From Pusillimonas sp. T7-7 (GTDB lineage Bacteria; Pseudomonadota; Gammaproteobacteria; Burkholderiales; Burkholderiaceae_B): a stretch of DNA of 64,000 nucleotides. The position numbers and the translations under genes were made by a program. The notes beneath the pieces were generated by a model. It saw only the letters and a program-made list of their open reading frames with translations, was not told the DNA's origin and searched no databases. Below are positions 16,146 through 34,493 of this stretch, one piece after another. Numbering within the stretch: position 1 is the first letter of the stretch; every line of letters starts with the position of its first letter. Where the stretch lies: positions 186,001 to 250,000 of the forward strand of contig NC_015458.1 of assembly GCF_000209655.1 (NCBI RefSeq), given 5' to 3'.

Positions 16146-16163
16146 CCCCTTCATTTGCAGGGT
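16146..16163. promoter_or_regulatory. 7-2-7 inverted repeat operator, site 1 (before DUF2799 lipoprotein)
   Basis: CCCCTTCA-TT-TGCAGGGT agrees with the consensus CCCCTTCA-NN-TGAAGGGG at 14 of 16 arm bases. It lies 58 bp before the lipoprotein start. TAGCAT, a plausible -10 hexamer, begins 21 nt after it (16185). The same spacing is seen at the four other sites of this set. Confidence 0.6.
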
Positions 16164-16221
16164 GCCTGTAAGCGCGACTTCTTATAGCATGGGACACCGA
16201 CCTTGATGGCTTGCGCATCTC

Positions 16222-16791
16222 ATGCATTCGCTTATACATACACATTGCCGCTCATTCAGGGTGCTTCGTCTAAGCCTGGGCATCACGGCCCTTGTTGCTT
16301 TGTCGGGCTGCGCCACCATGTCTGAAGGCGAATGCCTGACCGCAAACTGGCTTGACCGAGGGTATAAAGATGGCCGCCATGGTTATCCGGCATCGCGTGT
16401 GGTGGATCACCGCGAGGCCTGCTCCGATGTGGGCGTCGCACCCGATATGACGCAATACCGTAAGGGATACGACCAGGGTATTGCGCAATACTGTACGCCT
16501 GCCAATGCGGTTGCTGAAGGACGGTCTGGGCGCTCTTATGGCCATGTTTGCCCGGCTAGGCTGGAAGGCCGATTTCTTGTTTATTACCGCCAAGGGCGGG
16601 ATGCCTACGATGCGCAGCAGCGGGTGGATCGACTCAATCGGCAATCTCGTGAGCTGCAACGCGAGCTGGACGAGGAAAAAGACAAGGACGTGCGTCAGCG
16701 CTTGCGCAACGAGCTTCGGAATCTGGATCGTCGCTTGAGTCGGGCGCGCGATGAATTGGCTGATTTCGACCGGCGCCTGCCTTATCGCTGA
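16222..16791 (+). CDS. DUF2799 family lipoprotein
   Basis: The 189-residue protein has a lipoprotein signal with lipobox VALSGC at about residues 26-31, then a domain with repeated Y-x-x-G-x-x-DG patterns (RGYKDGRHG, KGYDQGIAQYC, YYRQGRDAYDA) that marks the DUF2799 family, and a charged C-terminal coiled coil. It should be anchored in the outer membrane. Function is unknown. It is preceded by a copy of the shared inverted repeat, so it is probably co-regulated with the autotransporters. It converges on the VWA gene with 12 bp between the stop codons. Confidence 0.75.
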   Translation: MHSLIHTHCRSFRVLRLSLGITALVALSGCATMSEGECLTANWLDRGYKDGRHGYPASRVVDHREACSDVGVAPDMTQYRKGYDQGIAQYCTPANAVAEGRSGRSYGHVCPARLEGRFLVYYRQGRDAYDAQQRVDRLNRQSRELQRELDEEKDKDVRQRLRNELRNLDRRLSRARDELADFDRRLPYR

Positions 16792-16803
16792 GCGCAGGCC
16801 TGG

Positions 16804-18561
16804 CTATCGCACCTTGATGATGGATCGACCCAGCACGGTGCGCTGGCTTACGTCCAGGTAGCGCATCTCGTAGTCGCCGGGTTCTTTCGGCATATTGAAC
16901 TCAAGCGTCTTTGCCTCGTTGATCTTCTTGGCATCGATCCAGGTCAAATCGGCCTGATCCTTCGAGGCCAGCGCCACGCGCTGATCTGCGCTGTCGGATC
17001 CGCCCGTCCAGGACACCGTGACGGCCTGGCTGGGTGAGGCCTGCGTCGGAACTGTCAGCACAGCGCCAGAGCTCAGTGCGGCATCGGCGGCAACGACCTC
17101 AAGGTTGTGCCGGGCCAGCACGCTGCCGTCTTGGTCGAGCACATAGCGAATTTCATACAAGCCAGGCTGCTTGGGCGCTTTCAAACTGATTTTCAATCGG
17201 CTGTCAACGCGCTTTCTACCGTCCAGCGTTTTGTCCGGAGAGCCAGCCGGAGCGATGACGACCATGTCCCGGGAATTGATGGCCGTTGTCCAGGACACGT
17301 CCACAGCTGCGTCCGCCCGTACAAGATCGGGCCCGGTGATGGCCTGTTGGGCCGCCGTCACTTCCACCGGTGCACTGGCCAATGTCTTGCCGCCCTGACG
17401 GAGCACGTAGCGCACTTCGTACAGGCCGGGCTTGCCAGGAGCGGTCAGTTGCCCCTTCAAGGCGTTCTCCACGCGGATATAGTTGGTGAGTTTGCCCTCG
17501 GGCGACCCGGCGGGCACGATCTGTACCCAGTCGCGGTTGTTCAGGGCCGCTGTCCACGAGACTTCAAAGCGGGCGCCGGCAGTAAGCTGACCGGGTGCGC
17601 TGATGCCCATTTCGGCTTCGACCACTTCCATCGGCGCACTGGCCAATGTTTTGCCGCTTTGACTGAGCACGTAGCGCACTTCGTACAGACCCGGTTCACC
17701 AGGAGCGGTCAGTTGCCCCTTCAGGGCGTTCTCCACGCGGATATAGCTGGTGAGCTTGCCCTCGGGCGACCCGGCGGGCACGATCTGCACCCAGTCACGG
17801 TTGTTCAGGGCCTCGGTCCACGACACATCAAAGCGCGTGCCTGCGATGGCCTGTTCCGGCGCGCTGACCTGCACGGTGTATTCGGGTTCCGCTGCCGGCG
17901 GCTCGGGAACCGGTTCCGGGTCGGCCTCTTTTTGCACCACCTTGGCCTGCACTTGCTGCAGTGCGTCTTGCAGCTCGTCCGCATTGCTGGCCGGCACAAA
18001 TATCCCGCCCGTGTTTTTGGCTATGCACGAGAGCGCTTCGTTGCCTTCTTGATCCAGGTCGAAGCCCACCACGTGGGCCTTGAAGTCCACGCCTTTTTCT
18101 TTCAGCTCGGCGGCCACGGCGCATGGGTCGCCGTGGCAGGATTCCAGTCCGTCGGAGATCAAGACCACGGTGGCGTTGTGGTCCCGATATTGCAGCACGT
18201 CGGCGGCCTGCTTGAGCGACGCCGAAATGGGGGTCTTGCCCTTGGGCGTGATGGCATTGACGGTTTTGATGAACGCATCGCGATCGACTCGCTGCGGTTC
18301 GATCATGGTTTCGATGTCGCTGCAACTGCCTGCGCTGCGGTGACCGTAGGCGATCAAGCCCAGATTGGTGTTTTCGGGCCAGCTCTTGACCAGTTCGCCC
18401 ATGACCTTGCGCGCCGTGACGATCTTGTTGACGCCGTCGACCTGGCCCCACATGGAACCCGAGGCGTCATAGATGATCAGCACGTCGTCGTCAGCCTGTG
18501 CGGCCGATAGCGGCAATGCGCTGGCGGCAACGGCAAGGAGCAAGGCGGGCAGTCTGTTCAT
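16804..18561 (-). CDS. Secreted VWA-domain protein with four Ig-like repeats
   Basis: The 585-residue protein has a Sec signal peptide (residues 1-23), then a von Willebrand factor A domain with an intact MIDAS (DASGS at 32-36, the TPIS Thr near 110, SDGLESC near 136). A proline-rich linker (PEPVPEPPAAEPE) leads to four repeats of about 88 residues with VSWT...GLYEVRYVL cores, the first two almost identical at DNA level. VWA domains with MIDAS bind metal-dependent ligands, so a periplasmic or surface protein-binding role is likely. It is the last gene of the D-E-F half of the six-gene cluster, 28 bp after the DUF4412-like gene. Function unknown. Confidence 0.8.
   Translation of the reverse strand: MNRLPALLLAVAASALPLSAAQADDDVLIIYDASGSMWGQVDGVNKIVTARKVMGELVKSWPENTNLGLIAYGHRSAGSCSDIETMIEPQRVDRDAFIKTVNAITPKGKTPISASLKQAADVLQYRDHNATVVLISDGLESCHGDPCAVAAELKEKGVDFKAHVVGFDLDQEGNEALSCIAKNTGGIFVPASNADELQDALQQVQAKVVQKEADPEPVPEPPAAEPEYTVQVSAPEQAIAGTRFDVSWTEALNNRDWVQIVPAGSPEGKLTSYIRVENALKGQLTAPGEPGLYEVRYVLSQSGKTLASAPMEVVEAEMGISAPGQLTAGARFEVSWTAALNNRDWVQIVPAGSPEGKLTNYIRVENALKGQLTAPGKPGLYEVRYVLRQGGKTLASAPVEVTAAQQAITGPDLVRADAAVDVSWTTAINSRDMVVIAPAGSPDKTLDGRKRVDSRLKISLKAPKQPGLYEIRYVLDQDGSVLARHNLEVVAADAALSSGAVLTVPTQASPSQAVTVSWTGGSDSADQRVALASKDQADLTWIDAKKINEAKTLEFNMPKEPGDYEMRYLDVSQRTVLGRSIIKVR
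17401..17928 (-). repeat. Tandem 264-bp duplication inside the VWA gene
   Basis: The stretch starting at 17401 recurs from 17665 with only scattered differences over at least 150 bp. It encodes the first two 88-residue Ig-like repeats. The DNA similarity is well above that of repeats three and four, which suggests a recent duplication or gene conversion. Confidence 0.75.
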
Positions 18562-18589
18562 GTTGGGTCTCCGGGTGGCGAGTATGGGC

Positions 18590-19282
18590 TTATTGAGACT
18601 GCTTCATGAGTTGCTTCATCATGTCATGCATATTCACGGGCTTGGCCGGTAATTCAAACGCAGAGGCGGCAGGTGTGTCGGCGGCAATGGATTGCACCAC
18701 CATGTCGTCGCCCAGCCGCAGCAAACCGCGCTTGTTGTTTGGCAAGGCGTTTGTGAACTCAGCGATCATCTCGGCGCCCACCATCGCTTTCGACATGGCA
18801 AGATACGCGGCGGTCATTTCAACGACCAGCGGATCAGCTGTGAACACAGCTTGCGTGGTCTGGCTCTTGCCTTGCTTATCGGCGGTCGTCAGCTCATACA
18901 CATCGCCATCGATACCTGCGACGGTTTCTTTTTTGCCGGTCGCCTTGATGGATGTGATGCGCATCGCCAGGGGCGAGGTCTTGCCGCCTTCGTCGCTGTT
19001 GGCTACTTCGGCAAAGCCTTGCATCATGTTGCCGATTTCTATCACCGGCGGCATGCCCCCGGCCGCGTCGGGATAAACCACGTAGGCTTTGCCGTCGCGC
19101 GAGATCATGTAGCCGCCGTCGGTCGAGGGCATGTCAAAGCGGATAGTGTTGCTGTCCAGCCAGGACATGGTGTTGCTTTCGCCGTCGGTTGCTATCGTTG
19201 CCGTGCCGGCGGCCCAGGCGCAAAGCGGGCTGAGCGCGATCGTCAGCAGTGCGGCGCGTATGGCCAGGGATCGATGGTTCAT
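18590..19282 (-). CDS. Periplasmic protein, DUF4412-like
   Basis: From the ATG of MNHRSLAIRAALL the protein has 230 residues with a clear signal peptide (cleavage after ...CAWA, about residue 23). A beta-rich body follows (residues 24-190) with a short methionine-rich tail (MHDMMKQLMKQ). The repeating pattern, with a reported cargo-free domain of alternating strands, looks like the DUF4412 family, but this is a tentative match. A GGAG sequence precedes the chosen start; a longer in-frame start at 19414 would hide the signal peptide. It sits between gene D and the VWA gene. Function unknown. Confidence 0.7.
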   Translation of the reverse strand: MNHRSLAIRAALLTIALSPLCAWAAGTATIATDGESNTMSWLDSNTIRFDMPSTDGGYMISRDGKAYVVYPDAAGGMPPVIEIGNMMQGFAEVANSDEGGKTSPLAMRITSIKATGKKETVAGIDGDVYELTTADKQGKSQTTQAVFTADPLVVEMTAAYLAMSKAMVGAEMIAEFTNALPNNKRGLLRLGDDMVVQSIAADTPAASAFELPAKPVNMHDMMKQLMKQSQ

Positions 19283-19335
19283 GGGTGGCTCCGTGGGGCA
19301 ATTGAATAAATTGAATATAAAACGGCAATTTCCGT

Positions 19336-20037
19336 TTACTTCAGGCGTTCGAAGATGGTCTCGGCCAATTGCAGCGTTTGTAGTTTGCGAGCGGGCATGG
19401 TGTCTTTTCTCCATGCCCGGTCGGCTTTAATAATGGTCTTCATATCACGCTTGCTGGGCATTGGCATTCCAGGTCCGGAATAAGCCTCGATCGTAATAAT
19501 TGCCGTCCCCTGGCGTGCGACCAGCTTGCCTTCACCCAGGTCAAATCGAGCTTCATCGCCCATGGCCTCCACGTCTTCAAATTCGATAGGCGTCTGACTG
19601 GCGGCGTCAACGATCGAGTTTTTAGTGCGTTTGGCGCTGTCGGATTTTTGCGATTTATTGGTCTTGTCGGCGGCATCCATTTTGTCGCGCAGTATTTGCG
19701 CGGCTGCGGCCATTTCTTCACGGCTCACGGACCGTGTCCGCGATTTGAATCTTTTGGCCGCCTTTTCTTTACTGTCCATAATCTCTATCTGGGCTTTCGT
19801 GAAAACGCTGTGGTCGGCGCCAGACCATTTGGTCGTGCAGATCTGCCGCCGCTTCATCTTCAATTCGCGTTGCTTGATCTCGGCCTCGGGTACATCGAAC
19901 AGTTCAGCCACGGTGGCGGTGGGCACCATCAGACAAGGATCGTCGGCCAGCTTTTCCAGATCGACGGCCGCCGCAGGTAGTGCCAGTATGGCCAGTGCAT
20001 ATCCGGCCAATGTAGTGCGGATTGTGGTTGTTTGCAT
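19336..20037 (-). CDS. Secreted protein of unknown function (first gene of unit D-E-F)
   Basis: From the ATG of MQTTTIRTT the protein has 233 residues with a Sec signal peptide ending near ALPAAA. The mature part begins LEKLADDPCLMVP and has a second Cys in RRQICTTKW, so a disulfide is possible. A Lys/Ser/Thr-rich low-complexity middle follows. No family is recognised with confidence. It starts a new transcription unit: a 122-bp gap separates it from the metallopeptidase-like gene and holds a copy of the shared inverted repeat 81 bp before this start. The longer frame from 20226 would run over that operator and is rejected. Confidence 0.7.
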   Translation of the reverse strand: MQTTTIRTTLAGYALAILALPAAAVDLEKLADDPCLMVPTATVAELFDVPEAEIKQRELKMKRRQICTTKWSGADHSVFTKAQIEIMDSKEKAAKRFKSRTRSVSREEMAAAAQILRDKMDAADKTNKSQKSDSAKRTKNSIVDAASQTPIEFEDVEAMGDEARFDLGEGKLVARQGTAIITIEAYSGPGMPMPSKRDMKTIIKADRAWRKDTMPARKLQTLQLAETIFERLK

Positions 20038-20118
20038 AATTGATTCCCCTCGTGCGGCGTCTTGAGCAAGACGTTTTTTGCGGTTTTTGCAAGCATGAGC
20101 CAAAGCGCGGGCGTTGTC

Positions 20119-20136
20119 CCCCTTCAAATGAACAGG
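20119..20136. promoter_or_regulatory. 7-2-7 inverted repeat operator, site 2 (before gene 19336-20037)
   Basis: CCCCTTCA-AA-TGAACAGG matches the consensus at 14 of 16 arm bases. On the minus strand, 21 nt farther, CATGCT occupies the -10 position (20097-20092), the weakest -10 of the set. The gene starts 81 bp downstream. Confidence 0.55.
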
Positions 20137-20159
20137 TTTGGCGAGAAAGTCGGCCGAGG

Positions 20160-22541
20160 TCAATCTTTTGGAGTCTGATTTTTTTGCATGAATGTCGATC
20201 CACCAGGCAGTGCCGGGTTTGTCCACGGGATATCGCCGGTGACGGTGTTGGTGATCCGATTCAAATGGTTCAAAAGTCCACTGTCCTGGTCGGTATGCGT
20301 CGAGGTTGAATTAAAATATCCCGAGACGGTTTGATATTCGATCGGCTCGCCGTGTTCGTCTTCGCGGACGACCTGAAAGCGAAATGAACCCGCCAGATGT
20401 TTTGGCTCAGCGTGCTCCAGGATCAACTCAGGCGTCATGCAAGCATCATTCTCGTCATCACAGAGCCCCCATTTGTCCTCGCCCTGGGGTGCCAGAGCAA
20501 TGAGTTGTTGCAGCCTCAAAGTCTGTGTCGGGATTACAGAGACAGAAAACTGGTCTCCCGTGAGCGTTTGGGCACCGCCACTAGGCCCAGGCAGGGTAGC
20601 GCGAAGCATCATCTGGCAGGCTTTGGTGCCATGGTTTCCGCTGAATTGAGCCGATAGCGTGGTTTCATTTTTTGCTCGAAGTTTGCCCACGCCGGCATCT
20701 ATAATAGCGCCAGCCTGGCCGGCCATGGCAGTCGCGATTTGGTCTTCGACGTGTGACTGTAAGGCTTTGAGCTCATCAGGCGATAAGGGAGTGCTGATGC
20801 CTTTGTCGACGAGTTCCTTGAGTTTGCTTTCTGCCAGTTTAAAATCGCTTTTTATATTCTGCTCCATTTGTGGGGGCATCCGCTCGAGATCGGTGGCAGT
20901 GCTGTCCGGCGTCATCAATGTGAATGATGCACGCGCTTTGGTACCGCCCGTGCAATTCCAGAACAGATCAGGCCCCTGGATGTCAAACCCTGGGGGAAGC
21001 TCGCCTGCGGCCTGATCAACCCAGGATTTATCAGCCTCTTCGCCATAGAAGCCTTCAACCTCAACCCGTAGCGTGAAATCGGCCTCTTTGGTTTCGGCAG
21101 CGTCGCGTGCCACATTGGCGACCCGGACAAGCAGTTCAATCTCGCCCTCTTCATTTCGTAGTCTGCGGCTGCTTTGGGTGGTATAGCTATAGAGCGCCGT
21201 CGGATCGGGTGGTGGACTGATGACCTTGCGGTCTACAATCAGATGCAGCGCTTCGCGGTGGGCATCGTCGGGAGTTTCCAGCACGATTCGGATGGTATAG
21301 GGGATGGAGTCGGCACTGTCATCGGGTAGTTGGATGCGCAAGCGCCATGCGCGTGAGGCAATTGGCTGCAGGGGACCGCCGGACTGTGCGCTGCTGGCTT
21401 TATACAGGTCGGGGGAAGCCAGCGTGACGTTTTTCAGATGTTCGTAAAAGCGGTCGTCATCCAGATATCGTGCAACGAATAGGGGATAGAGGTTAAACAG
21501 CCCACCCTGATATACAGAGATCACATCAAAGATGTTCGCCGCGTTTTTCAGACCTGCATCTACTTGGGCCAAGCCTGTTTTTCCCGATGGCCCGGGTTGT
21601 TTGAATATATAGTGCAGATAGGTTTGACGACGATGGTCGTTGGCTTGCTTACTTCCCAGCATCTCGCCCATTGCGTACCAGAAATACCAGGTGCCGTAGC
21701 TGCACCACCATCCCAGCCCCTGGGTTTTGTATTGACTGATCAGGCTATCCCCCTTTGCTGCACTGTTCCGCAGATTTGGCGGCAGGGACCCCCAATCCAG
21801 AGGCTGGTCAAAATAGCGGACCCAATTGGCTCGATGTGAATCCTTGAACGGATGACCGTAGCGATATCCGTGGGTTTTCTCGAGCCAGCGGATCTGGATA
21901 TAAGCAGCCGTTCCCTCTGTCAGCCAATCCAATGCCCCAAGGCCTTCTCCCGTGTTGTTGTCAAAGGGCGGGTTTCGGCATTCAGGCGGCCCAGGCAGTA
22001 GACGGTCTGGGAAGCGGTAGGTACGGTTGCGTTGGATCGCGTGAAACAGCTCGTGTACAGCGGCCGGCTCCATGAGGTGGTCAAGTTTGCTCACGGGACG
22101 TAGAAAGCCGGGATTGGATGCAAGAAACATTCTGCCGGCTTTGTTATGTGACGAACTGATCTGTGAGCTATCGTCTTTGAGGAAAGCCAAATAACGATCA
22201 CCCGTTGTCAGTTTGAACTCGCGTTCCTGATTGATTTGGTAGGGAGCTGGAAAGCCCATCAATTGGAACCAGATGCTCGCACGATGCAGCATGTCCGTAT
22301 GTTTCTGGGCCATCAACAGCCGTTCGCCAGCGGGGGTACGGCTGGGCAGGACGAATTCGAGCATATCGACCTCTTGCTCCACGACGGTCCAGGCCAAGGA
22401 GGGCCATCGTGCCCAGGCTGGTGCGGCAAACAGCAGGCCAAAAACAAGAGTGGCCAGAATGGTACGGATGGCGCCTCCTGAATTACTGCAAATAATTTGA
22501 ATTTGCCCCATCCATCTGTAGGAGAATGCATGATTTGTCAT
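20160..22541 (-). CDS. Large secreted HExxH protein, putative gluzincin-type metallopeptidase
   Basis: With the start at MTNHAFSYRW the protein has 793 residues; the start is uncertain because no good ribosome site is seen (another Met is at 22511, and the frame is open to 22616). A hydrophobic export segment, ILATLVFGLLFAAPAWA, ends near residue 44. HELFH is at 163-167, and a third ligand candidate, the Glu of WLTEGTAAY, is 42 residues later, the order seen in gluzincin peptidases. The remaining 550 residues are beta-rich and of unknown fold. It is the third gene of unit A-B-C, 81 bp after gene B. Activity is inferred from the motif only. Confidence 0.7.
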   Translation of the reverse strand: MTNHAFSYRWMGQIQIICSNSGGAIRTILATLVFGLLFAAPAWARWPSLAWTVVEQEVDMLEFVLPSRTPAGERLLMAQKHTDMLHRASIWFQLMGFPAPYQINQEREFKLTTGDRYLAFLKDDSSQISSSHNKAGRMFLASNPGFLRPVSKLDHLMEPAAVHELFHAIQRNRTYRFPDRLLPGPPECRNPPFDNNTGEGLGALDWLTEGTAAYIQIRWLEKTHGYRYGHPFKDSHRANWVRYFDQPLDWGSLPPNLRNSAAKGDSLISQYKTQGLGWWCSYGTWYFWYAMGEMLGSKQANDHRRQTYLHYIFKQPGPSGKTGLAQVDAGLKNAANIFDVISVYQGGLFNLYPLFVARYLDDDRFYEHLKNVTLASPDLYKASSAQSGGPLQPIASRAWRLRIQLPDDSADSIPYTIRIVLETPDDAHREALHLIVDRKVISPPPDPTALYSYTTQSSRRLRNEEGEIELLVRVANVARDAAETKEADFTLRVEVEGFYGEEADKSWVDQAAGELPPGFDIQGPDLFWNCTGGTKARASFTLMTPDSTATDLERMPPQMEQNIKSDFKLAESKLKELVDKGISTPLSPDELKALQSHVEDQIATAMAGQAGAIIDAGVGKLRAKNETTLSAQFSGNHGTKACQMMLRATLPGPSGGAQTLTGDQFSVSVIPTQTLRLQQLIALAPQGEDKWGLCDDENDACMTPELILEHAEPKHLAGSFRFQVVREDEHGEPIEYQTVSGYFNSTSTHTDQDSGLLNHLNRITNTVTGDIPWTNPALPGGSTFMQKNQTPKD

Positions 22542-22622
22542 ATCATATGTTTTTGTTTGAAAGTGGGGCATCCCCGCTTCTGGTGCTTGCCCGCATGGAT
22601 TCTGCATTCTTCCCACGTCACT

Positions 22623-23594
22623 TTATTGCCGCCCGGCTCTGTGCACCACTTTCCGATGCCATTCAGGTCCCGATCCGGGGGACAGGCGCAGCAAGGTCCA
22701 GAGCTCCGACACGGCATCATCCATCAGCCCTTGCTGGTGCAGCAGACCGGTGATACCGCTGTCCTGGCCCGAGACATTCTTCGAGATCCGGAAAACCATC
22801 TCGGGTTGCCCGATCGAGGCGCTCTCGCTGGGCTCGGCCTGCCCACTGCCGCCCGTGGCGCTCAGGAACAGCATTTGTGCCACGCGGGCCGGGCCTGGTA
22901 GGTCTGCATCATTGGGCTCGCGGTACACCGCGGCACTCAGCGTCGACGGCGTGAAAGCACGCCAGACATCTGATGGGTCAGTGGGGCTGGCGGCGGACAG
23001 GCAGGGCATCCCAAGGCAATCCTGCTTTGCGGCATCGGTTTGATTGAGCTCAGCACGGCTGGCCCGCTCGACATGGGCCCGATTGCCCTGGACGGGGCCG
23101 AACACAAAACGCCAGGCCAGGTTGGGTCCTATACCAAAAATGCTTTCTGGTGGCCAAAATTCCCGCTCCACATGTCGGATGACATCCTGGTAGCGCTGGG
23201 GACCCAGATTGAAGCGCAGCACCTCGACATACTCGCGTTGCCCCTGGCCCGCTTGCGGCACGCGGTCCAGGTGGTATCGGATCAGGTAACGGGCATGCGG
23301 CAAGGGGGCCTCGGCGCAATCGACCAGCAGGACCGCCTTGGTCAGCGCATCCAGACCAGCATCCGGCCTGAAGGCCGTCTGGCCTGACTTCGGAAAGCGC
23401 TCCCTGGTGTAGAACGCCTCATCGCCGCAGGACTGGGTGATGTCCACTTCGGCAAAACCAGGAGCCCCGATGAAGGCAGCCGACCGCTGCTCGATGGCCT
23501 GCTGGGCCTTGGGTGGCAGGACTGTGGCGAGTCCTTGGCCTGGAGTTCCGGCTAGTGCCGCTGCCGCGAGCAGTAATGTTGTAAACAGGTTCAT
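22623..23594 (-). CDS. Secreted protein of unknown function (gene B)
   Basis: The 323-residue protein has a signal peptide (residues 1-24, MNLFTTLLLAAAALAG...). The mature protein has several cysteines (CGDEAF, VDCAEAP, QDCLGMPC) that could form disulfides in the periplasm. No known domain is recognised. Its ATG overlaps the stop of the upstream membrane protein gene (23591-23594), which shows tight coupling. The HExxH gene follows. Function unknown. Confidence 0.7.
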   Translation of the reverse strand: MNLFTTLLLAAAALAGTPGQGLATVLPPKAQQAIEQRSAAFIGAPGFAEVDITQSCGDEAFYTRERFPKSGQTAFRPDAGLDALTKAVLLVDCAEAPLPHARYLIRYHLDRVPQAGQGQREYVEVLRFNLGPQRYQDVIRHVEREFWPPESIFGIGPNLAWRFVFGPVQGNRAHVERASRAELNQTDAAKQDCLGMPCLSAASPTDPSDVWRAFTPSTLSAAVYREPNDADLPGPARVAQMLFLSATGGSGQAEPSESASIGQPEMVFRISKNVSGQDSGITGLLHQQGLMDDAVSELWTLLRLSPGSGPEWHRKVVHRAGRQ

Positions 23595-24592: not shown

Positions 24593-24652
24593 GCCGCTTT
24601 CTCCTTGACCGCGCAAATTCAGGCCAGTCTATTGAGTTTTAGCGTGCGACGC

Positions 24653-24670
24653 GCCCTTCGTTTGAATGGG
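24653..24670. promoter_or_regulatory. 7-2-7 inverted repeat operator, site 3 (before gene A)
   Basis: GCCCTTCG-TT-TGAATGGG matches the consensus at 13 of 16 arm bases. On the minus strand TAGACT lies exactly 21 nt farther (24631-24626), in -10 position for the gene starting at 24592. Confidence 0.55.
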
Positions 24671-24723
24671 GTCAATCATAAAAGCGCAGATAAGGAAATA
24701 GCTTGCCTGAATAACTGTGCTTT

Positions 24724-24741
24724 CCCCTTCATATGAAGGGC
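24724..24741. promoter_or_regulatory. 7-2-7 inverted repeat operator, site 4 (before autotransporter 1)
   Basis: CCCCTTCA-TA-TGAAGGGC contains a perfect 16-bp palindrome (24725-24740) and matches the consensus at 15 of 16 arm bases. TAGCTT (24763-24768) follows after 21 nt as a -10 candidate; the start codon is 97 bp downstream. Confidence 0.75.
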
Positions 24742-24838
24742 GCGGTTTCAAATTGTTTACGGTAGCTTAAAAAAGAAACCATGTGTGGCCACGCACGCCT
24801 GTCTGCCATTTGAAAAATATTCTCTGGGGAAATGATTG

Positions 24839-27800
24839 ATGAACAAAATCTACTGCAAAGTGTGGAGCAAGGTCCGCAACGCCATGGTGGTGGCGTCTGA
24901 ACTGGCTCGTGGTGCGGGAAAGGGAAAAAATGGCGGCGCCCGGACATCGGCGCGATCCCGGCGCTTGAATGCCGTCGTTGTGGCGGTGGCCCTGGGCGGT
25001 GGCGCCGGCATGGCGCAAGCCGCCGACGTGCCAGTGGATGCTGACGGCAGCACAGAAACATTGAATGCCACAGATACGTATATCAAGATCACAGCCAGCA
25101 ATGGCGGCATAGTGGACGCCAATGGCAATGCCGTGACGATACTGGGCAACGACCCATCCAGTGAAGGCAGTGGCGTGGTGGTTCTGACGACCGGTGGGCA
25201 GTTGGTGCTCGACGGCGGCGGTACGCTGGACAATATCAATACGGTCGATGAGTCTCACGGCCTTTTCGCAGAAGGGGATGACACCAGTGCAATGCTAAGT
25301 GGCGTGGCGATATCGACGAAAGGCGACAAGGGCCGAGGGATTGACGCCAGCGAAAATTCGTCGGTCGACATGGTCGGAGGGCACATAACTACAGAGGGGA
25401 ATGGGTCCTCCCACGGTGTACTGGCTATTTTTGGTGCTCGAGTCACGCTTACCGATGGAGTGGTCATTACAACCAAAGGCTCAACGAATTCGTTCGGACT
25501 CCGAGGTTGGGATAGTGTCATTGATATGTCGGGCGGCAGTATTGCCACTGTTGGAGCCGGCGCCACTGGAGTTCAGGCCGGTGACGGGGCTACGATCAAG
25601 CTTACCGATGGCGTCAAGGTGACAACCACTGGCGCGTACGCCGCCGGTGTCTCGGCTAGTGGTGACTCAGACGTCACGTTGTCGGGCGGAAGCATCGTTA
25701 CCAAAGGTCAGAATAGCCACGGCGTTACGGGGATTGATTCATTTGTCACATTGAAAGATAAGGTGGCCATCACAACTGAAGGATCAGACGCTGTAGGGAT
25801 TCAGGCAACTGGCAATGCCAATATGGCCATGGCCGGCGGCAGTGTCACTACTCATGGCTCGTACGGTTACGGCGCCACGTCGGGCAATAACAGCACAATA
25901 GCGTTGACAGGCGTTGCCATCACCACCATGGGTGGCAGGGCGGATGGGCTCTCCGCACAAGCTCAGGGGCACATCAGCATGGCTGGAGGCAGCATCACCG
26001 CCGAAGGTTCGGAGGCGGCTGGTGCTGTTGCCGTAGATCAGTCTCGCATTACGTTGACCGACGGCGTGGCGATTACGACGAATGGAGATTGGGCAACGGG
26101 CATTGTTGCGGAAGACGATGCAAGTGTCACGATGTCTGGTGGCACTATTTCAACCGTGGGTGTGGGCGCGAAGGGCGCCCAGTTATGGAATAACAGTACA
26201 CTTTCTTTGGTCGATGTCTCCATCACGACCACAGGCGCGGACGCCAACGGCCTGCTCGTCGTGAATGACGCAAGCGCCCATTTGAACCGGGTCACAATGG
26301 ATACTGCTGGCGCATCCATCGCTCGTAATCTGAACTCCAGCGGCCTGAGTCCGCAGCCCATCCTCGTCGCGAATTCCGATCTGACGCAAAACAATGGTGT
26401 GCTCTTAGCCGTGACAGGCAGTAATTTGACTGACCCCACTGTTTTGCAGCTTACGGACGGCACACGAGCCGCTGGCGACATCACTGATGTCTCGACCAAT
26501 AACCGCAACACCCTGGCCCTAGCCAGCGGCTCGCAATGGACCGGCGTCTCGCGCTTGGATGGCAATTTGACTCTGACCGATGCCGGCACGGCCACCCACG
26601 GCGGTACCGTGGCGGCGCCGATTCAGGTTTCTGGGGACGTTATAGTCAGCAATGGCGCGGCCCTAGGCGGCAACCTGAACGTGGGTGGCATGCTCAGCGG
26701 CAGCAGCGGCGCTCTGCGTCCGGGCAACTCCATTGGCACGCAAACCTTTGCCAGCGCCGGCAGCTTTACGGGCGACTATCACGCCGAGGTCAACGCTGCA
26801 GGCCAGTCCGATCTGATCAGCGTCACTAGTGGCAACTTTGATTTGACGGGCACGAATCTGTATGTGGACGAAGCCGACGGTAACGGCGGCTACAAACTGG
26901 ATCATGACTACACCATTGTCACCACCGGCGATGCCACCGGGATTTCCGGTGTGGCCAACAATGAGTTCGCCAATGGCGGAGAACTCGAGGGCAGTCTGGC
27001 CAAATCCCTGGTCAAGCTTGATCCCGTCATCTACGGCGATGACGTCGTCAAGATCCGGCTTTCCATCGACCAGGCCAAGCAACTCACGCTGACCGACAAC
27101 CAGGACGCTGTCCTGACGGCGGCAGGGACCAATCCGGCGGTGCAGCAGGCAGCTCAGATGGATAACTACGCCGATGCCTTGGATCATCTATCGGGCGAAA
27201 TTCACGCCAGCACTCAGACCGCCTTGCTGGACACCGGCAACCTGATGCAGCGCACCTTGGTCAATCGCATGCGCGGCAATAGCGGCTCGCCGTCCTGCGC
27301 CAATACAGCGGGATCGGATCAGGACAGGGCGGGCCAGGCCGCAGCCTGCGGCCTGGATTATCCGCTCTGGGCTCAGGTCGTGGGCAGTTGGAACCATCAT
27401 GACGGCGACAGCAACACGGCGTCCACCCGCTACCGGCTGGGCGGCCTGTACCTGGGTGGCGACAAGACCTTTGACAGTGGCTGGCGTGTCGGCGGTGCTG
27501 TGGGCTTTACCGATGGCAAGATCAACGCGGATGACCGCGACTCCAATGCCGATGTGAAGAGCTACACCGCTGCGCTGTATGGGGGCAAAGGCTGGGCGCT
27601 GTCCAAAGGGCAGCTCAACCTGCTGATGGGGGCAGGCTACACCTATCATGATATCGACACCGATCGGGACACTAATGTGCTGGGCAGCCAGAGCCTGAGT
27701 GCGGGCTATCACGCCAACAGCACCCTGCTCTTTGCCGAGCTGGGCTATGCCTTGCCGGTGTCCGATGCCACTTACGTGGAGCCTTACCTGAATCTGGGCT

Positions 27801-28195
27801 GGACGGACTTGCGCACCAAGGGTTTCTCGGAGTCCGGCGGCTCGACCGCGCTGAAAGCCGATAGCGATCACAACCAGATCTTTACCCAGACCCTGGGGCT
27901 GCGCAGCACAACCGCATTCACTGCCGGCAAGACGGATATCAGCCTGCTGGCGGGCCTGGGGTGGCGCCACGCAAGCGGCGACCTGGACGCGACACGCACC
28001 ATGGCGTTCAGCCAAGGTGGCGGCGAGAGCTTCGAGATCAAGGGCGCCCCGATCGCGAAGAACGCGGCGGTACTGGATTTGGGAGCAGAGGCCCGCCTGG
28101 GGGAAAACACCGCGCTGGGGCTGTCTTATTCCGGTCAGTTCAGCAGTCACGGCAACGACAATACAGGATCACTGTACTTGCGTATGAAGTTTTAG
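24839..28195 (+). CDS. Autotransporter 1 (type Va) with repeat-rich passenger
   Basis: The 1118-residue protein begins with an extended signal peptide (ESPR, MNKIYCKVWSKVRNAMVVASE) and a hydrophobic core cleaved near residue 61 (GGAGMAQA). Residues 90-500 hold about nine repeats of 40-45 residues with GGSI-TT-G-A-GV and ITLTDGV patterns, which should form a beta-helix passenger. The autotransporter barrel occupies roughly residues 840-1118 and ends in a terminal Phe (YLRMKF), the outer-membrane assembly signal. The ATG is preceded by GGGGA. It is likely an adhesin or surface structure. It precedes the sensory operon, and a conserved operator lies upstream. Confidence 0.92.
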   Translation: MNKIYCKVWSKVRNAMVVASELARGAGKGKNGGARTSARSRRLNAVVVAVALGGGAGMAQAADVPVDADGSTETLNATDTYIKITASNGGIVDANGNAVTILGNDPSSEGSGVVVLTTGGQLVLDGGGTLDNINTVDESHGLFAEGDDTSAMLSGVAISTKGDKGRGIDASENSSVDMVGGHITTEGNGSSHGVLAIFGARVTLTDGVVITTKGSTNSFGLRGWDSVIDMSGGSIATVGAGATGVQAGDGATIKLTDGVKVTTTGAYAAGVSASGDSDVTLSGGSIVTKGQNSHGVTGIDSFVTLKDKVAITTEGSDAVGIQATGNANMAMAGGSVTTHGSYGYGATSGNNSTIALTGVAITTMGGRADGLSAQAQGHISMAGGSITAEGSEAAGAVAVDQSRITLTDGVAITTNGDWATGIVAEDDASVTMSGGTISTVGVGAKGAQLWNNSTLSLVDVSITTTGADANGLLVVNDASAHLNRVTMDTAGASIARNLNSSGLSPQPILVANSDLTQNNGVLLAVTGSNLTDPTVLQLTDGTRAAGDITDVSTNNRNTLALASGSQWTGVSRLDGNLTLTDAGTATHGGTVAAPIQVSGDVIVSNGAALGGNLNVGGMLSGSSGALRPGNSIGTQTFASAGSFTGDYHAEVNAAGQSDLISVTSGNFDLTGTNLYVDEADGNGGYKLDHDYTIVTTGDATGISGVANNEFANGGELEGSLAKSLVKLDPVIYGDDVVKIRLSIDQAKQLTLTDNQDAVLTAAGTNPAVQQAAQMDNYADALDHLSGEIHASTQTALLDTGNLMQRTLVNRMRGNSGSPSCANTAGSDQDRAGQAAACGLDYPLWAQVVGSWNHHDGDSNTASTRYRLGGLYLGGDKTFDSGWRVGGAVGFTDGKINADDRDSNADVKSYTAALYGGKGWALSKGQLNLLMGAGYTYHDIDTDRDTNVLGSQSLSAGYHANSTLLFAELGYALPVSDATYVEPYLNLGWTDLRTKGFSESGGSTALKADSDHNQIFTQTLGLRSTTAFTAGKTDISLLAGLGWRHASGDLDATRTMAFSQGGGESFEIKGAPIAKNAAVLDLGAEARLGENTALGLSYSGQFSSHGNDNTGSLYLRMKF

Positions 28196-28311
28196 CTTGA
28201 GCTTATGTAAGCGCCCTTGGTAGCGCCAGGGTGCTTGTATGAAGTATGGTGTCCCATAAGGCAGTCTAGACTTCGGACTCGCCTACGAATAATAAATAAT
28301 GGGAGGCAATC

Positions 28312-28854
28312 ATGTTTTTAGGAATGATTGGGAGAACAGCCCTGCGATCCTGCAGGGCATGGGCGGCCATGTTTTGGCTGAGTATGCCGACCCAGGTTCT
28401 GGCGGAACATGTCAACGAGCTGCCCGCGGCCAAAGGCAAAATTGTGCTAGAGGTCTATGGCGCCATTCGCAACACCAATGCTGACGAGGTCGCTCAGTAC
28501 GATTGGGCCATGCTTAAGGCTTTCCCACGCGTGCGGATAGAAACACATACGTCCGTCACCGATGGCGTGCATACGTTCGATGGTTTCCTGCTGCGCGATC
28601 TGCTTGAGCAGGTGGGCGCTGCCGGCTCTGCCGTGGTGGTGACGGCTTTGAACTATTACGAGATCGAGATTCCCATCGAGGAGTTCGATGACTATGACGT
28701 CATCCTGGCTTATGCCATGGATGGGAAACGGTTGCGGTACCACGAGAAAGGGCCGTTGTGGATTGTGTATCCACGTGACGACCATCCTGAGTTGCAGGAT
28801 ATTCGCTACGATTATCGCTGGGTCTGGCAAGTTTTCCGCCTGGGCATCCTATGA
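28312..28854 (+). CDS. Periplasmic molybdopterin-oxidoreductase-like (PruR/SUOX-fold) putative pterin sensor
   Basis: The 180-residue protein has an N-terminal signal or anchor (residues 8-30, ...MFWLSMPTQVLA) and a single oxidoreductase molybdopterin-binding domain: the FDGFLLRDLLEQVGA and YAMDGKRLRYHEKGPLWIVYPRDD-type segments. It lacks the long catalytic part and the molybdenum-ligating cysteine of YedY-type enzymes. Such stand-alone domains beside sensor proteins (PruR of Agrobacterium) bind pterins in the periplasm and act as sensors. The next gene, a histidine kinase, overlaps it (ATGA), which supports a sensor role. The ligand is not shown by sequence. GGGAGG precedes the start. Confidence 0.75.
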   Translation: MFLGMIGRTALRSCRAWAAMFWLSMPTQVLAEHVNELPAAKGKIVLEVYGAIRNTNADEVAQYDWAMLKAFPRVRIETHTSVTDGVHTFDGFLLRDLLEQVGAAGSAVVVTALNYYEIEIPIEEFDDYDVILAYAMDGKRLRYHEKGPLWIVYPRDDHPELQDIRYDYRWVWQVFRLGIL

Positions 28855-30674
28855 AACGGCCGCTGCGGCCGTTGTTTGGCGTGGGCTTGCCGCTGCTTGC
28901 GATTGTGAGCTTCTTTGTGCTGCTGGCTTATTCGTTGTCGCACCTTTTTGCGATTCAGGCTCGTATGCGGCTCGAGGCGCCTCATAATATGCTGTGGGTC
29001 ATCTCTCGGGCGCAAGTAGCCAGCTTTCGCCTGGCCAACACGGTGAGCGACCGTGCGGCAGGACAGGCCGACGCAGATGAGTTGCAACGCCAGTACCATG
29101 TGTTCCTGAGCCGTCTGCATTTGCTCGGACAGGGTCCGCAGCGGCGTCAGGTGGAAGCGTTCGGTTATGCCGACAGGCTCGATAGCCTTGCCCAAGGGCT
29201 GCCGGAACTGCAAGCGCGCATAGCCGCGTTGCAAGTGCAAGGCGACGGCGCTAATGCGCGGGAAGTCGAGCGGCTGCTGCAGCCTTATATTGCTATCCTG
29301 GGCCAAGCCTCGACCAAGGCCATGGTGGCCGGATGGGACGGCCTGGGCAGCAAATTGGATGATGCCCGCGATAAGCTCTGGTGGGTCATCGGCTCGCTGG
29401 CCGGTATTCTGCTGGCGGGCATTGCGCTCATCATTCATGCCTTGCTGGCGATACGCCACGCTCATGAACGTACACGGCTGTTGAATCAGGAAAAGGCATT
29501 TTCCCAATTGCTGATTGGTTCCAGCGGTGAAAATATTATTGCTGTGGATATGGAGCGCCGATGCACGGTGTGGAACGCGGCGGCGGAACAGCTGTTTGCG
29601 TGCCCCGCCGATACGGCTCAGGGATGGAAGCTGGGTGATGTGTCCAGCTTCTTTGAGGTGGAACGTGTTCGACGGGCTGTTGATGAGGCGCTGGCCGGCC
29701 ATAAGGCGGAGCTGCTCGACCAGCCCTTTTTTTGTGATTCGCGGAGCGAAGCCCGTTATGTGGACCTGCGTTGCTTTGCTCTGTATGAGCGCGAGCACAT
29801 TATCGGCGCGATCCTGCTGATTTTTGATGTGACCGAACGGCACGCCGCGCAACGTGAAATCGCCATGCATCGCGATCATCTGGAAGAACTCGTGCACGCC
29901 CGTACGCAAGAACTCGACGCCGCGCTTGAACGCGAGCGCGCCACGGCAGAGCTCTATCGTAATTTCGGCGCCATGGTGTCGCATCAATTCCGTACCCCCT
30001 TGGCGATTGTGGATTCTTCCCTGCAACGATTGATACGACGCGGCGAAAAATTGTCGCTGGCCGAGGTGCGCGAACGCAGCGGCAGGGCGCGCGAGGCCAT
30101 CAAACGCATGACCAAGCTGATTGAATGTACGTTGGATGCGGGCCGGCTGGATGCCGGGCAGGTTGAAGTCCATAACCAACTTTGCGATCTGACTTTATTG
30201 GCCGCGGGCATCTGTGAGCAGCAGCGCGCCGCCACGTCGGATCGGGTTATTGAGCTCACGCTGCCTGAAGATGCCGCTCCATTCGTCAATTGCGATCCGA
30301 CTCATGTAGAGCATATTCTTAATAACCTGCTTGCCAACGCCATCAAATATTCGCATGCGGGAAGCCCTGTGCGTGTGGAAGTCCGCTGCACTGACGGGAG
30401 GGTCGAATGCGCGGTGATCAACCAAGGGACTCTCGCGGGCCTCGAAGAGGGCGAGTCGGACGTGCTGTTTACCCGTTACTTTCGGGGCGACAACGCCAAA
30501 GGCCATACCGGTATTGGCATTGGTTTGTATATGGCCAGGGCGTTGGCGCGCTTGCAAGACGGCGATGTACGGTTGGTGCAAGACAAGGAAGGAGTCATTA
30601 CCTTTATTTTATGTTTGCCGCGAGTGGCTGCCCCCTACGTGGCGCTGTCTGATATGACGGAGAAAAGAGCATGA
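28851..30674 (+). CDS. Sensor histidine kinase with periplasmic domain and PAS domain
   Basis: The 607-residue protein has TM1 (about 8-28), a periplasmic helical domain (30-175), TM2 (176-200), a PAS-like domain (211-330), a coiled linker, and HisKA with the phosphoacceptor H378 in MVSHQFRTPL. The ATPase has an N box (HILNNLLANAIKY) and a glycine box (GIGIGLYMA). The upstream pterin-sensor-like gene overlaps by ATGA, and the response regulator overlaps downstream by ATGA, so the three are translationally coupled. The periplasmic domain is well placed to receive the sensor protein. It should phosphorylate the adjacent regulator. Confidence 0.9.
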   Translation: MKRPLRPLFGVGLPLLAIVSFFVLLAYSLSHLFAIQARMRLEAPHNMLWVISRAQVASFRLANTVSDRAAGQADADELQRQYHVFLSRLHLLGQGPQRRQVEAFGYADRLDSLAQGLPELQARIAALQVQGDGANAREVERLLQPYIAILGQASTKAMVAGWDGLGSKLDDARDKLWWVIGSLAGILLAGIALIIHALLAIRHAHERTRLLNQEKAFSQLLIGSSGENIIAVDMERRCTVWNAAAEQLFACPADTAQGWKLGDVSSFFEVERVRRAVDEALAGHKAELLDQPFFCDSRSEARYVDLRCFALYEREHIIGAILLIFDVTERHAAQREIAMHRDHLEELVHARTQELDAALERERATAELYRNFGAMVSHQFRTPLAIVDSSLQRLIRRGEKLSLAEVRERSGRAREAIKRMTKLIECTLDAGRLDAGQVEVHNQLCDLTLLAAGICEQQRAATSDRVIELTLPEDAAPFVNCDPTHVEHILNNLLANAIKYSHAGSPVRVEVRCTDGRVECAVINQGTLAGLEEGESDVLFTRYFRGDNAKGHTGIGIGLYMARALARLQDGDVRLVQDKEGVITFILCLPRVAAPYVALSDMTEKRA

Positions 30675-31333
30675 AATTCGCGTCTACGGTGAAACGAAAG
30701 CCTGTCATCCTGTGCGTGGAGGACGAGGCGGATTTATTGCGTGACACCGCCGAGGAACTCAGTGAGGCGGGTTATACGCCATTGCTGGCCAGCAATGGCG
30801 ACGAAGCCCTGGATCAACTGCGCACGACACGCCCCGACCTGATCCTGTGCGATATATCCATGCCGGACATGGATGGTTTCAGCTTGTTGTGCGCGGTGCA
30901 AGGCATGGCGCCCGACTACGCGGGTATTCCCTTCGTGTTCTTGACGGCGCTTTCCGACCCCCGCGAAGTCGTCGAGGGCAAACGCCTGGGGGCTGACGAT
31001 TATCTGGTCAAGCCCGTCGACTACGACCTGTTGCTGGCAACAATACAGGCTCGTCTGCGGCAAGTAACGCGCATTCACACGGCGCAGCGGGCGAGCATGA
31101 CGCACATCGACCCCGACATGCTCATCGCGCGTTTTGGTTTGACTCAGACTGAAGCGCGTGTTGCCGTCGCATTGACTGAAAATAAGCAACCTGCCCAGAT
31201 CGCCGCTGACTTCCGCATCTCGCGCACGACAGTCACTTTCCATCTGAAGAATATCTTCGGCAAAACGGGCACCACACGCCAGGCGGAGCTGGTCGCGCTT
31301 TTGCTTAGATCAGCGGTGGCCGACGCGCCGTAA
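30671..31333 (+). CDS. NarL/LuxR-type response regulator
   Basis: The 220-residue protein has a receiver domain with the phosphoacceptor D61 (ILCDISMPDMDG), acidic pocket (EDE near 17-19) and K114 (YLVKPVD). A LuxR-type helix-turn-helix (about residues 155-215, LTQTEARVAVALTENKQPAQ, then IAADFRISRTTVTFHLKNIF) follows. Proteins of this class bind inverted repeats, often in a 7-2-7 arrangement. The shared 7-2-7 repeat occurs upstream of both neighbouring autotransporters, so this regulator is the prime candidate to bind it; that is inference. It overlaps the kinase gene by ATGA. Confidence 0.92.
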   Translation: MKFASTVKRKPVILCVEDEADLLRDTAEELSEAGYTPLLASNGDEALDQLRTTRPDLILCDISMPDMDGFSLLCAVQGMAPDYAGIPFVFLTALSDPREVVEGKRLGADDYLVKPVDYDLLLATIQARLRQVTRIHTAQRASMTHIDPDMLIARFGLTQTEARVAVALTENKQPAQIAADFRISRTTVTFHLKNIFGKTGTTRQAELVALLLRSAVADAP

Positions 31334-31437
31334 AGGGCCTGCTGTCCAGCCGTTTCTGTTTTTGATCGCAGCGTATGCCAAGAGAGCTTGAGCGATAACG
31401 CCTGAGGCGTTGGTATATGTGCTTTTTCTTCACGCTT

Positions 31438-31455
31438 CCCCTTCAAATGAAGGGG
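31438..31455. promoter_or_regulatory. 7-2-7 inverted repeat operator, site 5 (before autotransporter 2)
   Basis: CCCCTTCA-AA-TGAAGGGG is the full consensus with perfect arms. TAAGCT (31477-31482) follows after exactly 21 nt in the -10 position. The GTG start is 66 bp downstream. Confidence 0.75.
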
Positions 31456-31521
31456 GCCAGATCGACTTTCCTTCGTTAAGCTTGAAGCGATCCGTTACCG
31501 CTTCATCCAAAAGGAAATACC

Positions 31522-34281: not shown

Positions 34282-34493
34282 CAAGCACCGTATCGTGCAT
34301 AGATAAACAAGTATTCCCCCCCTCACAATCGGTTCCCCCAGTGTGGCTGACAATTGCCGACACCGGAAGATACCGCTTGTTTCCATGCCAGGCGCCAACA
34401 CCACGGTATGCTCCGAAAGTTATGTATTGTGGCAAGTGCTCCGTTTCGCGACGCGGAGTCCATGCAATCCCGACAAGGAGCAAGAGGCTGGCG

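Follow-up and report, generated by a model that had tools for sequence, protein, structure and literature searches.

A candidate palindrome-promoter regulon of surface genes beside a FixJ-like sensor system in Pusillimonas sp. T7-7

In the FixL/FixJ system the FixL kinase is of the HisKA type. NarL sites are 7-2-7 inverted repeats of TACYNMT heptamers, and the NarX and NarQ kinases are of the HisKA_3 type. Sulfite-oxidase and YedY-like molybdoenzymes (PF00174) bind molybdenum through a conserved cysteine. The locus described here lies in 64,000 nucleotides of Pusillimonas sp. T7-7 (NC_015458.1, positions 186,001 to 250,000; the window, whose numbering is used throughout) and encodes, on the forward strand, an exported molybdopterin-fold protein (28312–28854), a sensor histidine kinase (28851–30674) and a response regulator (30671–31333). 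The kinase matches HisKA (PF00512) and PAS_4, with no HisKA_3 match at E ≤ 0.001. The regulator joins a receiver (PF00072, residues 13–125) to a LuxR/GerE HTH (PF00196, 157–209), and among the best 60 of its 81 matches to solved proteins only FixJ (5xso) matches over the full length (10–216). The NCBIfam FixJ model spans residues 10–214 with 68.7 bits, below its cut-off of 255, so the regulator is not FixJ itself; the MadR model spans 40–208 with 62.2 bits (cut-off 300). From its sequence, the regulator is best read as FixJ-like rather than NarL-type. The exported protein resembles PF00174, but no invariant or nearly invariant column of its family alignment holds a cysteine (13 aligned members); it is likely an accessory sensor.

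Six palindromes and the genes behind them

The earlier note on this DNA had described five copies of a 7-2-7 inverted repeat upstream of envelope or surface genes. The five sites were borne out: CCCCTTCANNTGAAGGGG matches the window at ≤3 mismatches in exactly five places, 16146 (two mismatches), 20119 (two), 24653 (three), 24724 (one) and 31438 (none), while 100 shuffles gave a mean of 0.27 matches and a maximum of 2, none of them reaching five. The arm length and the total did not stand, since the arms are eight bases long (8-2-8, the sites reading CCCNTTCA-WW-TGAANGGG) and there are six sites. Across the whole 3.92 Mb genome, CCCCTTCANNTGAAGGGG occurs at ≤3 mismatches in 12 places, five of them in these 15.3 kb, against eight for the same pattern read backwards. 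The refined pattern CCCNTTCAWWTGAANGGG occurs at ≤3 mismatches in 51 places (17 for the reversed control), eight of them with ≤2 mismatches; six of these eight are upstream of genes and two are within reading frames. The six are the window sites and C1:2657921, a perfect palindrome outside the window and upstream of a gene distantly paralogous to one in the local regulon. Of the two intragenic places, C1:1928279 was rejected for its position in a reading frame, and C1:3143139 (one mismatch) as a conserved coding coincidence, because it lies within a reading frame which, together with the site-like stretch, Pollutimonas harenae and the regulator-less congener G002 also have.

A −10-like hexamer begins exactly 21 bp past the palindrome in all six promoters, reading TAnnnT in five of them. 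Palindrome 1 (CCCCTTCATTTGCAGGGT; 16146–16163, +) is followed by TAGCAT (16185–16190), which is identical in P. harenae, and lies at the promoter of a DUF2799 lipoprotein gene (16222–16791, +; PF10973, 2.8e-25). Palindrome 2 (20119–20136, −) is followed by CATGCT (20092–20097), the one hexamer that departs from TAnnnT, and serves as the putative promoter of the second of two three-gene units; on the same strand lie genes for two exported proteins with no family assigned (19336–20037, whose likely start, 20037, falls within the open reading frame 19336–20226, and 18590–19414) and an exported vWA-domain protein (16804–18561). Palindrome 3 (24653–24670, −; hexamer TAGACT, 24626–24631) is at the promoter of the first unit, that of the membrane protein c23591 (23591–24592, −), which accompanies the motif more constantly than any other neighbour; an exported protein with no family assigned (22623–23594, −) and an exported metallopeptidase-like protein (20160–22616, −) are encoded beyond it. 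Palindrome 4 (24724–24741, +; TAGCTT, 24763–24768) is at the promoter of an autotransporter gene (24836–28195, +; ESPR and beta-domain), a promoter that perhaps reads on into the signalling genes. Palindrome 5 (31438–31455, +; perfect; TAAGCT, 31477–31482) is at the promoter of a large exported surface protein (31522–34281, +). With the likely start codons (ATG 16222, ATG 20037 and ATG 24592 on the reverse strand, ATG 24839, and GTG 31522), the gaps from site to start are 58, 81, 60, 97 and 66 bp, in agreement with the 58–97 bp noted before.

Both large surface proteins had earlier been called autotransporters. A Pfam autotransporter barrel is found in the 24836 protein, whereas the 31522 protein has none and gives a weak collagen match only. 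In the 20160 protein, H188, E189, H192 and E234 (HExxH...E) are invariant in 36 aligned sequences. BLAST found nothing significant between it and a remote 916-aa protein (E 0.17), while profile comparison aligned 153 columns of the two around HELFH...W[IL]TEG with a probability of 97.7%. With 8000 sequences scored, c23591 has 2815 relatives at E ≤ 1e-10; the 120 listed are 64–95% identical and none of them carries a Pfam domain. A structure model of c23591 built from 41 sequences (mean pLDDT 74.5, pTM 0.69) is all helices and matches nothing in the PDB at E ≤ 0.001; its weak resemblance to yeast PNS1 (E 0.04) and CysZ (E 0.07) may offer leads only.

Conservation and recurrence in relatives

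The bare palindrome is non-specific: at ≤2 mismatches it has at least one match in 27 of 61 related genomes, including two in each of the congeners G002 and G003 and four in G006. Specificity comes from palindrome and hexamer combined. The 45-bp pattern of palindrome, spacer and hexamer is found at ≤2 mismatches at only six palindromes in this genome, all of them before genes, at five in P. harenae and at none in G002 or G003; the reversed pattern gave none in any of the four genomes even at three mismatches. The five P. harenae sites lie on three contigs upstream of the same genes, the sites being kept even where the genes have moved. Palindrome 1 is identical there at 18/18 bases (L084), palindrome 4 keeps 13/18, one of the changes being mirrored in the opposite arm, and palindrome 5 is found together with the orthologue on another contig (L083). 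Between the two species the hexamer is identical at 30/30 positions, the palindrome at 81/90 and the spacer at 76/105; the upstream flanks reach 80/150 and 54/150, and the downstream flank, which is partly coding, 109/165. The response regulator is present in G000 and G001 and absent from G002 and G003, and the DUF2799 and c23591 genes follow the same pattern, with no match to the DUF2799 lipoprotein gene in G002 or G003. The regulon proposed from the window is thus supported by genome-wide specificity, once the hexamer is included, and by conservation in relatives, the two comparisons that had been suggested as checks.

A scan of 268 family genomes found matches in nine (one for the reversed control). 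Twelve matches fall outside the two Pollutimonas genomes, ten of them upstream of homologues of regulon genes, among which is a homologue of the 18590–19414 protein in G624. Signalling genes are present in the flanks of the matches in G582, G690, G560 and G624, and absent from the examined flanks in G583 and G585. The motif also recurs in Alpha- and Gammaproteobacteria beside a conserved module, which in full comprises c23591, the molybdopterin-fold protein, the kinase and the regulator. With a matrix trained on 11 Pollutimonas sites, 12 of 14 full-module regulator loci scored above all ten shuffles, compared with 0 of 10 loci without the full module (no c23591), a split that, like the hexamer, was spotted in the data before being tested. 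In the other two full-module loci, L179 and L239, the matches at the position where a site is expected are only weak and score lower than the best shuffle. A profile search of genome contigs with the regulator alignment gave 80 loci, mostly unrelated receivers, of which five were useful; the other 75, which include many from distant phyla, were used as rough controls for the matrix, and one of them scored 20.0. Among the plasmid matches, 7 of 15 were examined; an Aminobacter plasmid (L178) carries an orphan regulator and no site.

In 35 palindromes from other genomes (29 palindrome places and six from the matrix scan), 14 of 70 strands carry a TAG that starts at offset 21 (next best offset, 3), and 8 of 70 carry TAGnnT there (next best, 1). 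Sixteen of the 35 have TAnnnT or TAG at this offset and 19 have neither on either strand; some of these 19 are probably chance, and others precede module genes (L092, L179, L184).

Judged by co-occurrence and by linkage, the most likely binder is the local response regulator. The palindromes might instead be bound by another factor, encoded elsewhere and co-occurring with the gene set, the local system controlling something else. Linkage is compatible with another regulator travelling with the module, and the G583 and G585 matches have no signalling genes in their examined flanks; set against this, the motif stays beside c23591 and the kinase-regulator pair, as the full-module loci show, and the regulator-less congeners have no extended site at ≤2 mismatches, which makes the other factor unlikely.

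Promoter geometry and proposed mechanism

At class II activator-dependent promoters the activator is centred near −41.5 or −42.5 and there is no −35 hexamer. The 21-bp offset to the hexamer would put the palindrome centre near −42.5, a class II activator position. TAnnnT stands at offset 21 in 5 of 6 promoters of this genome and in 9 of 11 when P. harenae is added, and shuffling the six stretches downstream of the palindromes 200000 times never brought five TAnnnT to any single offset. The six palindromes are read, with considerable confidence, as probable sites of the phosphorylated regulator (30671–31333), from which surface genes would be activated in a class II-like manner. An envelope signal would be perceived by the exported molybdopterin-fold protein together with the kinase; the regulator, once phosphorylated, would pair up, bind the palindrome, stand in for the −35 element and recruit RNA polymerase to a −10 box 21 bp downstream that is weak and often reads TAGnnT. 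Exported and membrane proteins would thereby be switched on as a set, perhaps along with the system's own operon through the 24724 promoter.

A protein at this position, which overlaps the expected −35 element, could also be a repressor that blocks the promoter until the signal arrives. The base-exact spacing, however, would be unneeded by a repressor, the −10 boxes, with TAGnnT in place of TATAAT, are as poor as those of activator-dependent promoters, and a scan reported no sigma-70-like −35/−10 pair at any of the five window promoters, a weak test since it gave eight pairs overall against 7.7 in shuffles; repression is accordingly judged very unlikely. Chance palindromes, or a short mobile or transcribed hairpin repeat concentrated in the window, can practically be set aside: two of the eight best places do look like coincidences within reading frames and bare palindromes are common in related genomes, but the shuffles, the conservation at moved genes, the fixed offset, the six pre-gene copies of palindrome plus hexamer, the 45-bp counts and the 268-genome scan all contradict it.

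Under activation by the local regulator, a set of "hypothetical" exported proteins becomes one predicted co-regulated unit, with binding sites, start points and targets predicted to the base, and the c23591 family gains a functional context. The 45-bp signature recovers the regulon from DNA alone in other genomes, and in distant relatives, too, this palindrome-promoter code marks genes of these kinds. The balance of evidence leans, more tentatively, towards a widespread module of Alpha-, Beta- and Gammaproteobacteria, in which a molybdopterin-fold sensor partner without metal ligand, a HisKA kinase and a FixJ-like regulator would remodel the surface through an 8-2-8/21 bp/TAGnnT code kept base-exact from class to class, and whose most constant target would be the highly conserved membrane protein family of c23591 (>2800 relatives).

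Relation to described systems

No description of this sensor system or of its motif was found in the literature searched. The arrangement of the motif had been compared with that of NarL-type sites, a resemblance that proved loose. The NarL/NarP systems of enteric bacteria share the LuxR-type HTH and an inverted repeat around two bases; here the site sequence is another, the arms are of eight bases and the kinase is HisKA, not HisKA_3, and a NarL-type site was rejected on site sequence and kinase type. Judging from excerpts of their descriptions, VraTSR and QseG-QseE, which sense the envelope with three components, are alike in joining an accessory protein to a kinase and regulator with envelope output, but the putative accessory protein here has a PF00174-like fold without the conserved cysteine. 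The BiofilmReg operon, in the part of its description available (PMC5192318), likewise joins a further component to a kinase and a regulator in an operon of Burkholderiales, yet is another system: its regulator is of the CreB type, with a wHTH, and it includes a LysM/FecR protein. FixL/FixJ shares the HisKA kinase and the regulator of receiver and LuxR-type HTH. The present system differs in that its sensor has an exported molybdopterin-fold partner, the site is a strict 8-2-8 palindrome, and the predicted targets are surface proteins, whereas those of FixL/FixJ serve nitrogen fixation.

The palindrome and its downstream hexamer

All five inverted repeats claimed in the earlier note are recovered by pattern search, at positions 16146, 20119, 24653, 24724 and 31438 of the window (2, 2, 3, 1 and 0 mismatches, respectively). 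Shuffled versions of the window contain a mean of 0.27 matches, and five were reached in 0 of 100. The arms consist of eight bases, making the motif 8-2-8 rather than 7-2-7. With the original pattern, the whole genome of 3.92 Mb, in which C1:186001–250000 is the window, contains 12 places at up to three mismatches, compared with eight for the reversed control; the tighter consensus CCCNTTCAWWTGAANGGG gives 51 compared with 17. At up to two mismatches, CCCNTTCAWWTGAANGGG is found at eight places: the five window sites, a perfect sixth site at C1:2657921, and two places within reading frames.

In all six promoters, a hexamer starts exactly 21 bp past the palindrome in the direction of the gene (TAGCAT, CATGCT, TAGACT, TAGCTT, TAAGCT and TATAGT). 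Five of the six fit TAnnnT, a count that none of 200,000 shuffles of the six downstream stretches reached at any single offset. The hexamer class was spotted in these same data before it was tested, and independent genomes therefore carry more weight. Among 35 palindromes from other genomes (all 29 distinct places plus six from a matrix scan), offset 21 is the commonest starting point for both TAG (14 of 70 strands, against 3 at the runner-up offset) and TAGnnT (8 of 70, against 1). At least one strand has TAnnnT or TAG there in 16 of the 35, and 19 have neither; for the first-tested 25, the counts were reached by 0 of 1501 shuffles. Because TAG and TAGnnT peak at offset 21 in these foreign palindromes, the putative promoter code is common to several classes, though not to every palindrome. 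If the hexamer is a −10 box, the palindrome would span −51 to −34, with its centre at −42.5. Class II activators occupy the region near this position. A scan covering the five promoters in the window, which is a weak test, reported no sigma-70-like −35/−10 pair at any of them.

The genome-wide scan suggested in the earlier note is specific once the hexamer is included. The bare palindrome is unspecific, being present at up to two mismatches in 27 of 61 related genomes, including the congeners G002 and G003, but the 45-bp pattern of palindrome plus hexamer finds, at the same threshold, six palindromes in strain T7-7 (from seven rows, since the sixth site is also picked up in reverse orientation), five in Pollutimonas harenae, and none in either congener. 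At three mismatches, further rows number six in T7-7, six in P. harenae, three in G002 and two in G003, while the reversed control has none in any of the four.

Candidate regulon genes and their conservation in relatives

The six promoters precede a DUF2799 lipoprotein gene, two three-gene units, an autotransporter gene, a large surface protein gene and a remote gene for a 916-aa exported protein. Exported and membrane proteins are the products of the three-gene units; one has a vWA domain, and another, encoded at 20160–22616, carries an HExxH...E motif. In the latter, HExxH and its downstream E are invariant in 36 aligned sequences, and 50 proteins, itself counted, are related at E ≤1e-5. Two autotransporters had been proposed; the first is one, while the large surface protein (gene at 31522) lacks an autotransporter barrel in Pfam. 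There is a four-base overlap between the end of the latter gene and a glycosyltransferase ORF (34278–35807), and one promoter may serve both. Profile comparison (97.7% over 153 columns) shows the 916-aa protein to be distantly related to the HExxH protein, a relationship that BLAST of the two did not detect; the DNA motif has therefore added another gene of a family that the regulon already contained. The membrane protein encoded at 23591–24592 (minus strand; c23591) is modelled as all-helical with moderate confidence (pLDDT 74.5); the model matches nothing in the PDB significantly, and its resemblances to yeast PNS1 and the sulfate permease CysZ are weak and non-significant.

The regulator (30671–31333, plus strand) is found in P. 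harenae at 90% identity, and G002 and G003 have only distant receivers (best E 7e-15) and no match to DUF2799 or c23591. Conservation in relatives, another check put forward earlier, is seen in P. harenae, which keeps the same five promoters with their genes, spread over three contigs: L078 carries the cluster, including the second unit and both divergent sites, L083 has the 31522 orthologue and its site, and L084 the DUF2799 gene and its site. Between the two genomes, identity is 30/30 in hexamers, 81/90 in palindromes and 76/105 in spacers, and outside the sites 80/150 just upstream, 54/150 further up and 109/165 in the partly coding downstream stretches. The autotransporter site has diverged most (13/18 bases kept): across its arms, C-G replaces one T-A pair, a former outer mismatch is now paired, and one pair has been lost. 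Among the four genus genomes, the 20160 protein has a match in T7-7 alone; P. harenae has none, though neighbouring genes and both flanking promoters are kept there.

Allowing one mismatch and ignoring gene positions, the 45-bp pattern matches in 9 of 268 family genomes, compared with 1 of 268 for the reversed control. Seven genomes other than the two of Pollutimonas account for 12 matches, ten of them upstream of homologues of regulon genes: vWA (G560, G690 and G583, in the last as second gene after a lipoprotein), the autotransporter and c23591 (G582), the 916-aa protein (G583 and, as a fragment, G585), the 20160 protein (G585), the 18590 protein (G624) and DUF2799 (G690). The eleventh (G560) points towards a different exported protein, encoded divergently from vWA; the remaining one, in G021, is unrelated. 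A single palindrome in G690, flanked by hexamers 21 bp away to either side, separates DUF2799 and vWA genes of opposite orientation. Kinase, regulator and molybdopterin-fold genes lie within the fetched flanks of matches in G582, G690, G560 and G624 (where the contig stops 28 residues into the regulator), and are absent from those in G583 and G585. Of 37 family genomes common to the regulator search and the pattern scan, both with a full-length regulator have matches, as does one of the other 35 (G021). G013, also among these 35, has no match at up to one mismatch; it contains the module, in which the regulator is longer and c23591 is preceded by only a weak site. Almost all of the gene set is present at its locus (L239, 1648–11879): DUF2799, 20160, 22623, 23591, vWA and signalling genes.

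The signalling module beyond the family

Among 8000 candidates scored in each search, the regulator has 1822 relatives at E ≤1e-20 and c23591 has 2815 at E ≤1e-10. Named regulator relatives among the 120 listed belong to P. harenae and to Alphaproteobacteria such as Devosia, Aquamicrobium and Chelativorans; the 120 c23591 relatives listed are 64–95% identical, none with a Pfam domain. Judged by length alone, the two best-120 lists apparently have 20 contigs of ≥5000 in common (of 53 and 65 such contigs), a sign of linkage.

A matrix trained on 11 Pollutimonas sites only was run on 24 loci chosen by their regulator protein, with 10 first-order shuffles each. The full module of c23591, molybdopterin-fold protein, kinase and regulator is present in 14 of these (L091, L092, L094, L179–L184, L218, L229–L231 and L239), a split drawn after the matrix scores were known. 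The best or second-best match (the latter in L182 and L230) lies upstream of c23591 in 14/14, with a small ORF between them in L091 and L181. The best match exceeds its shuffles in 12 module loci (exceptions, L179 and L239), compared with 0/10 loci without c23591; 75 rough control loci have a median score of 8.2, and one reached 20.0. Named carriers include the alphaproteobacterial Devosia, Sulfitobacter, Nitratireductor, Roseibium, Paracoccus and Lentibacter, and a gammaproteobacterial Vreelandella MAG. In the nine named loci (L091, L092, L094 and L179–L184), c23591 and a signalling gene diverge from an intergenic stretch that holds a site; in L180 and L183, the signalling gene so placed is the regulator by itself. 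The Pollutimonas signalling genes follow the autotransporter gene, downstream of the 24724 site.

In Paracoccus aminophilus plasmid pAMI8 (L179, 228–22389), the whole module may have moved as one unit, since a gene for the same Tn3-family transposase stands on either side of it. An Aminobacter plasmid (L178, 13986–14624) has an orphan regulator relative downstream of a Tn3 transposase, with no kinase, partner or site. In Qingshengfaniella (L182, 11977–13031), the regulator is annotated as two genes, one encoding a receiver protein and the other an HTH protein.

Proposed mechanism and comparison with known systems

The regulator comprises a receiver and a LuxR-type HTH domain, and the kinase (28851–30674, plus strand) is of the HisKA type. 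The exported molybdopterin-fold partner (28312–28854, plus strand) has a PF00174 signature with no conserved cysteine in 13 aligned members, and thus more probably serves in sensing than in catalysis. PF00174-like exported proteins without a conserved cysteine adjoin kinase and regulator genes in many Proteobacteria. An envelope signal would act on the exported partner and kinase, and a dimer of the phosphorylated regulator would then bind the palindrome at −42.5 and activate a weak −10 promoter; the output would be exported and membrane proteins, and perhaps the signalling genes too. We infer the envelope signal itself, the binding and the direction of the effect. Literature searches, with most subscription journals outside their reach, found no account of the system or motif, an absence that is not proof of novelty.

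On the features tested, the system is not of the NarL type that the earlier note had read into the arrangement. FixJ (5xso) is the sole full-length match to the regulator among the 60 shown of 81, although the regulator falls far under the cut-off of the NCBIfam FixJ model. Two longer relatives tested (L091 and L181) have a weak PAS-like stretch between the domains, under the Pfam cut-off. In its working, the proposed system resembles FixJ-type or accessory-protein two-component systems.
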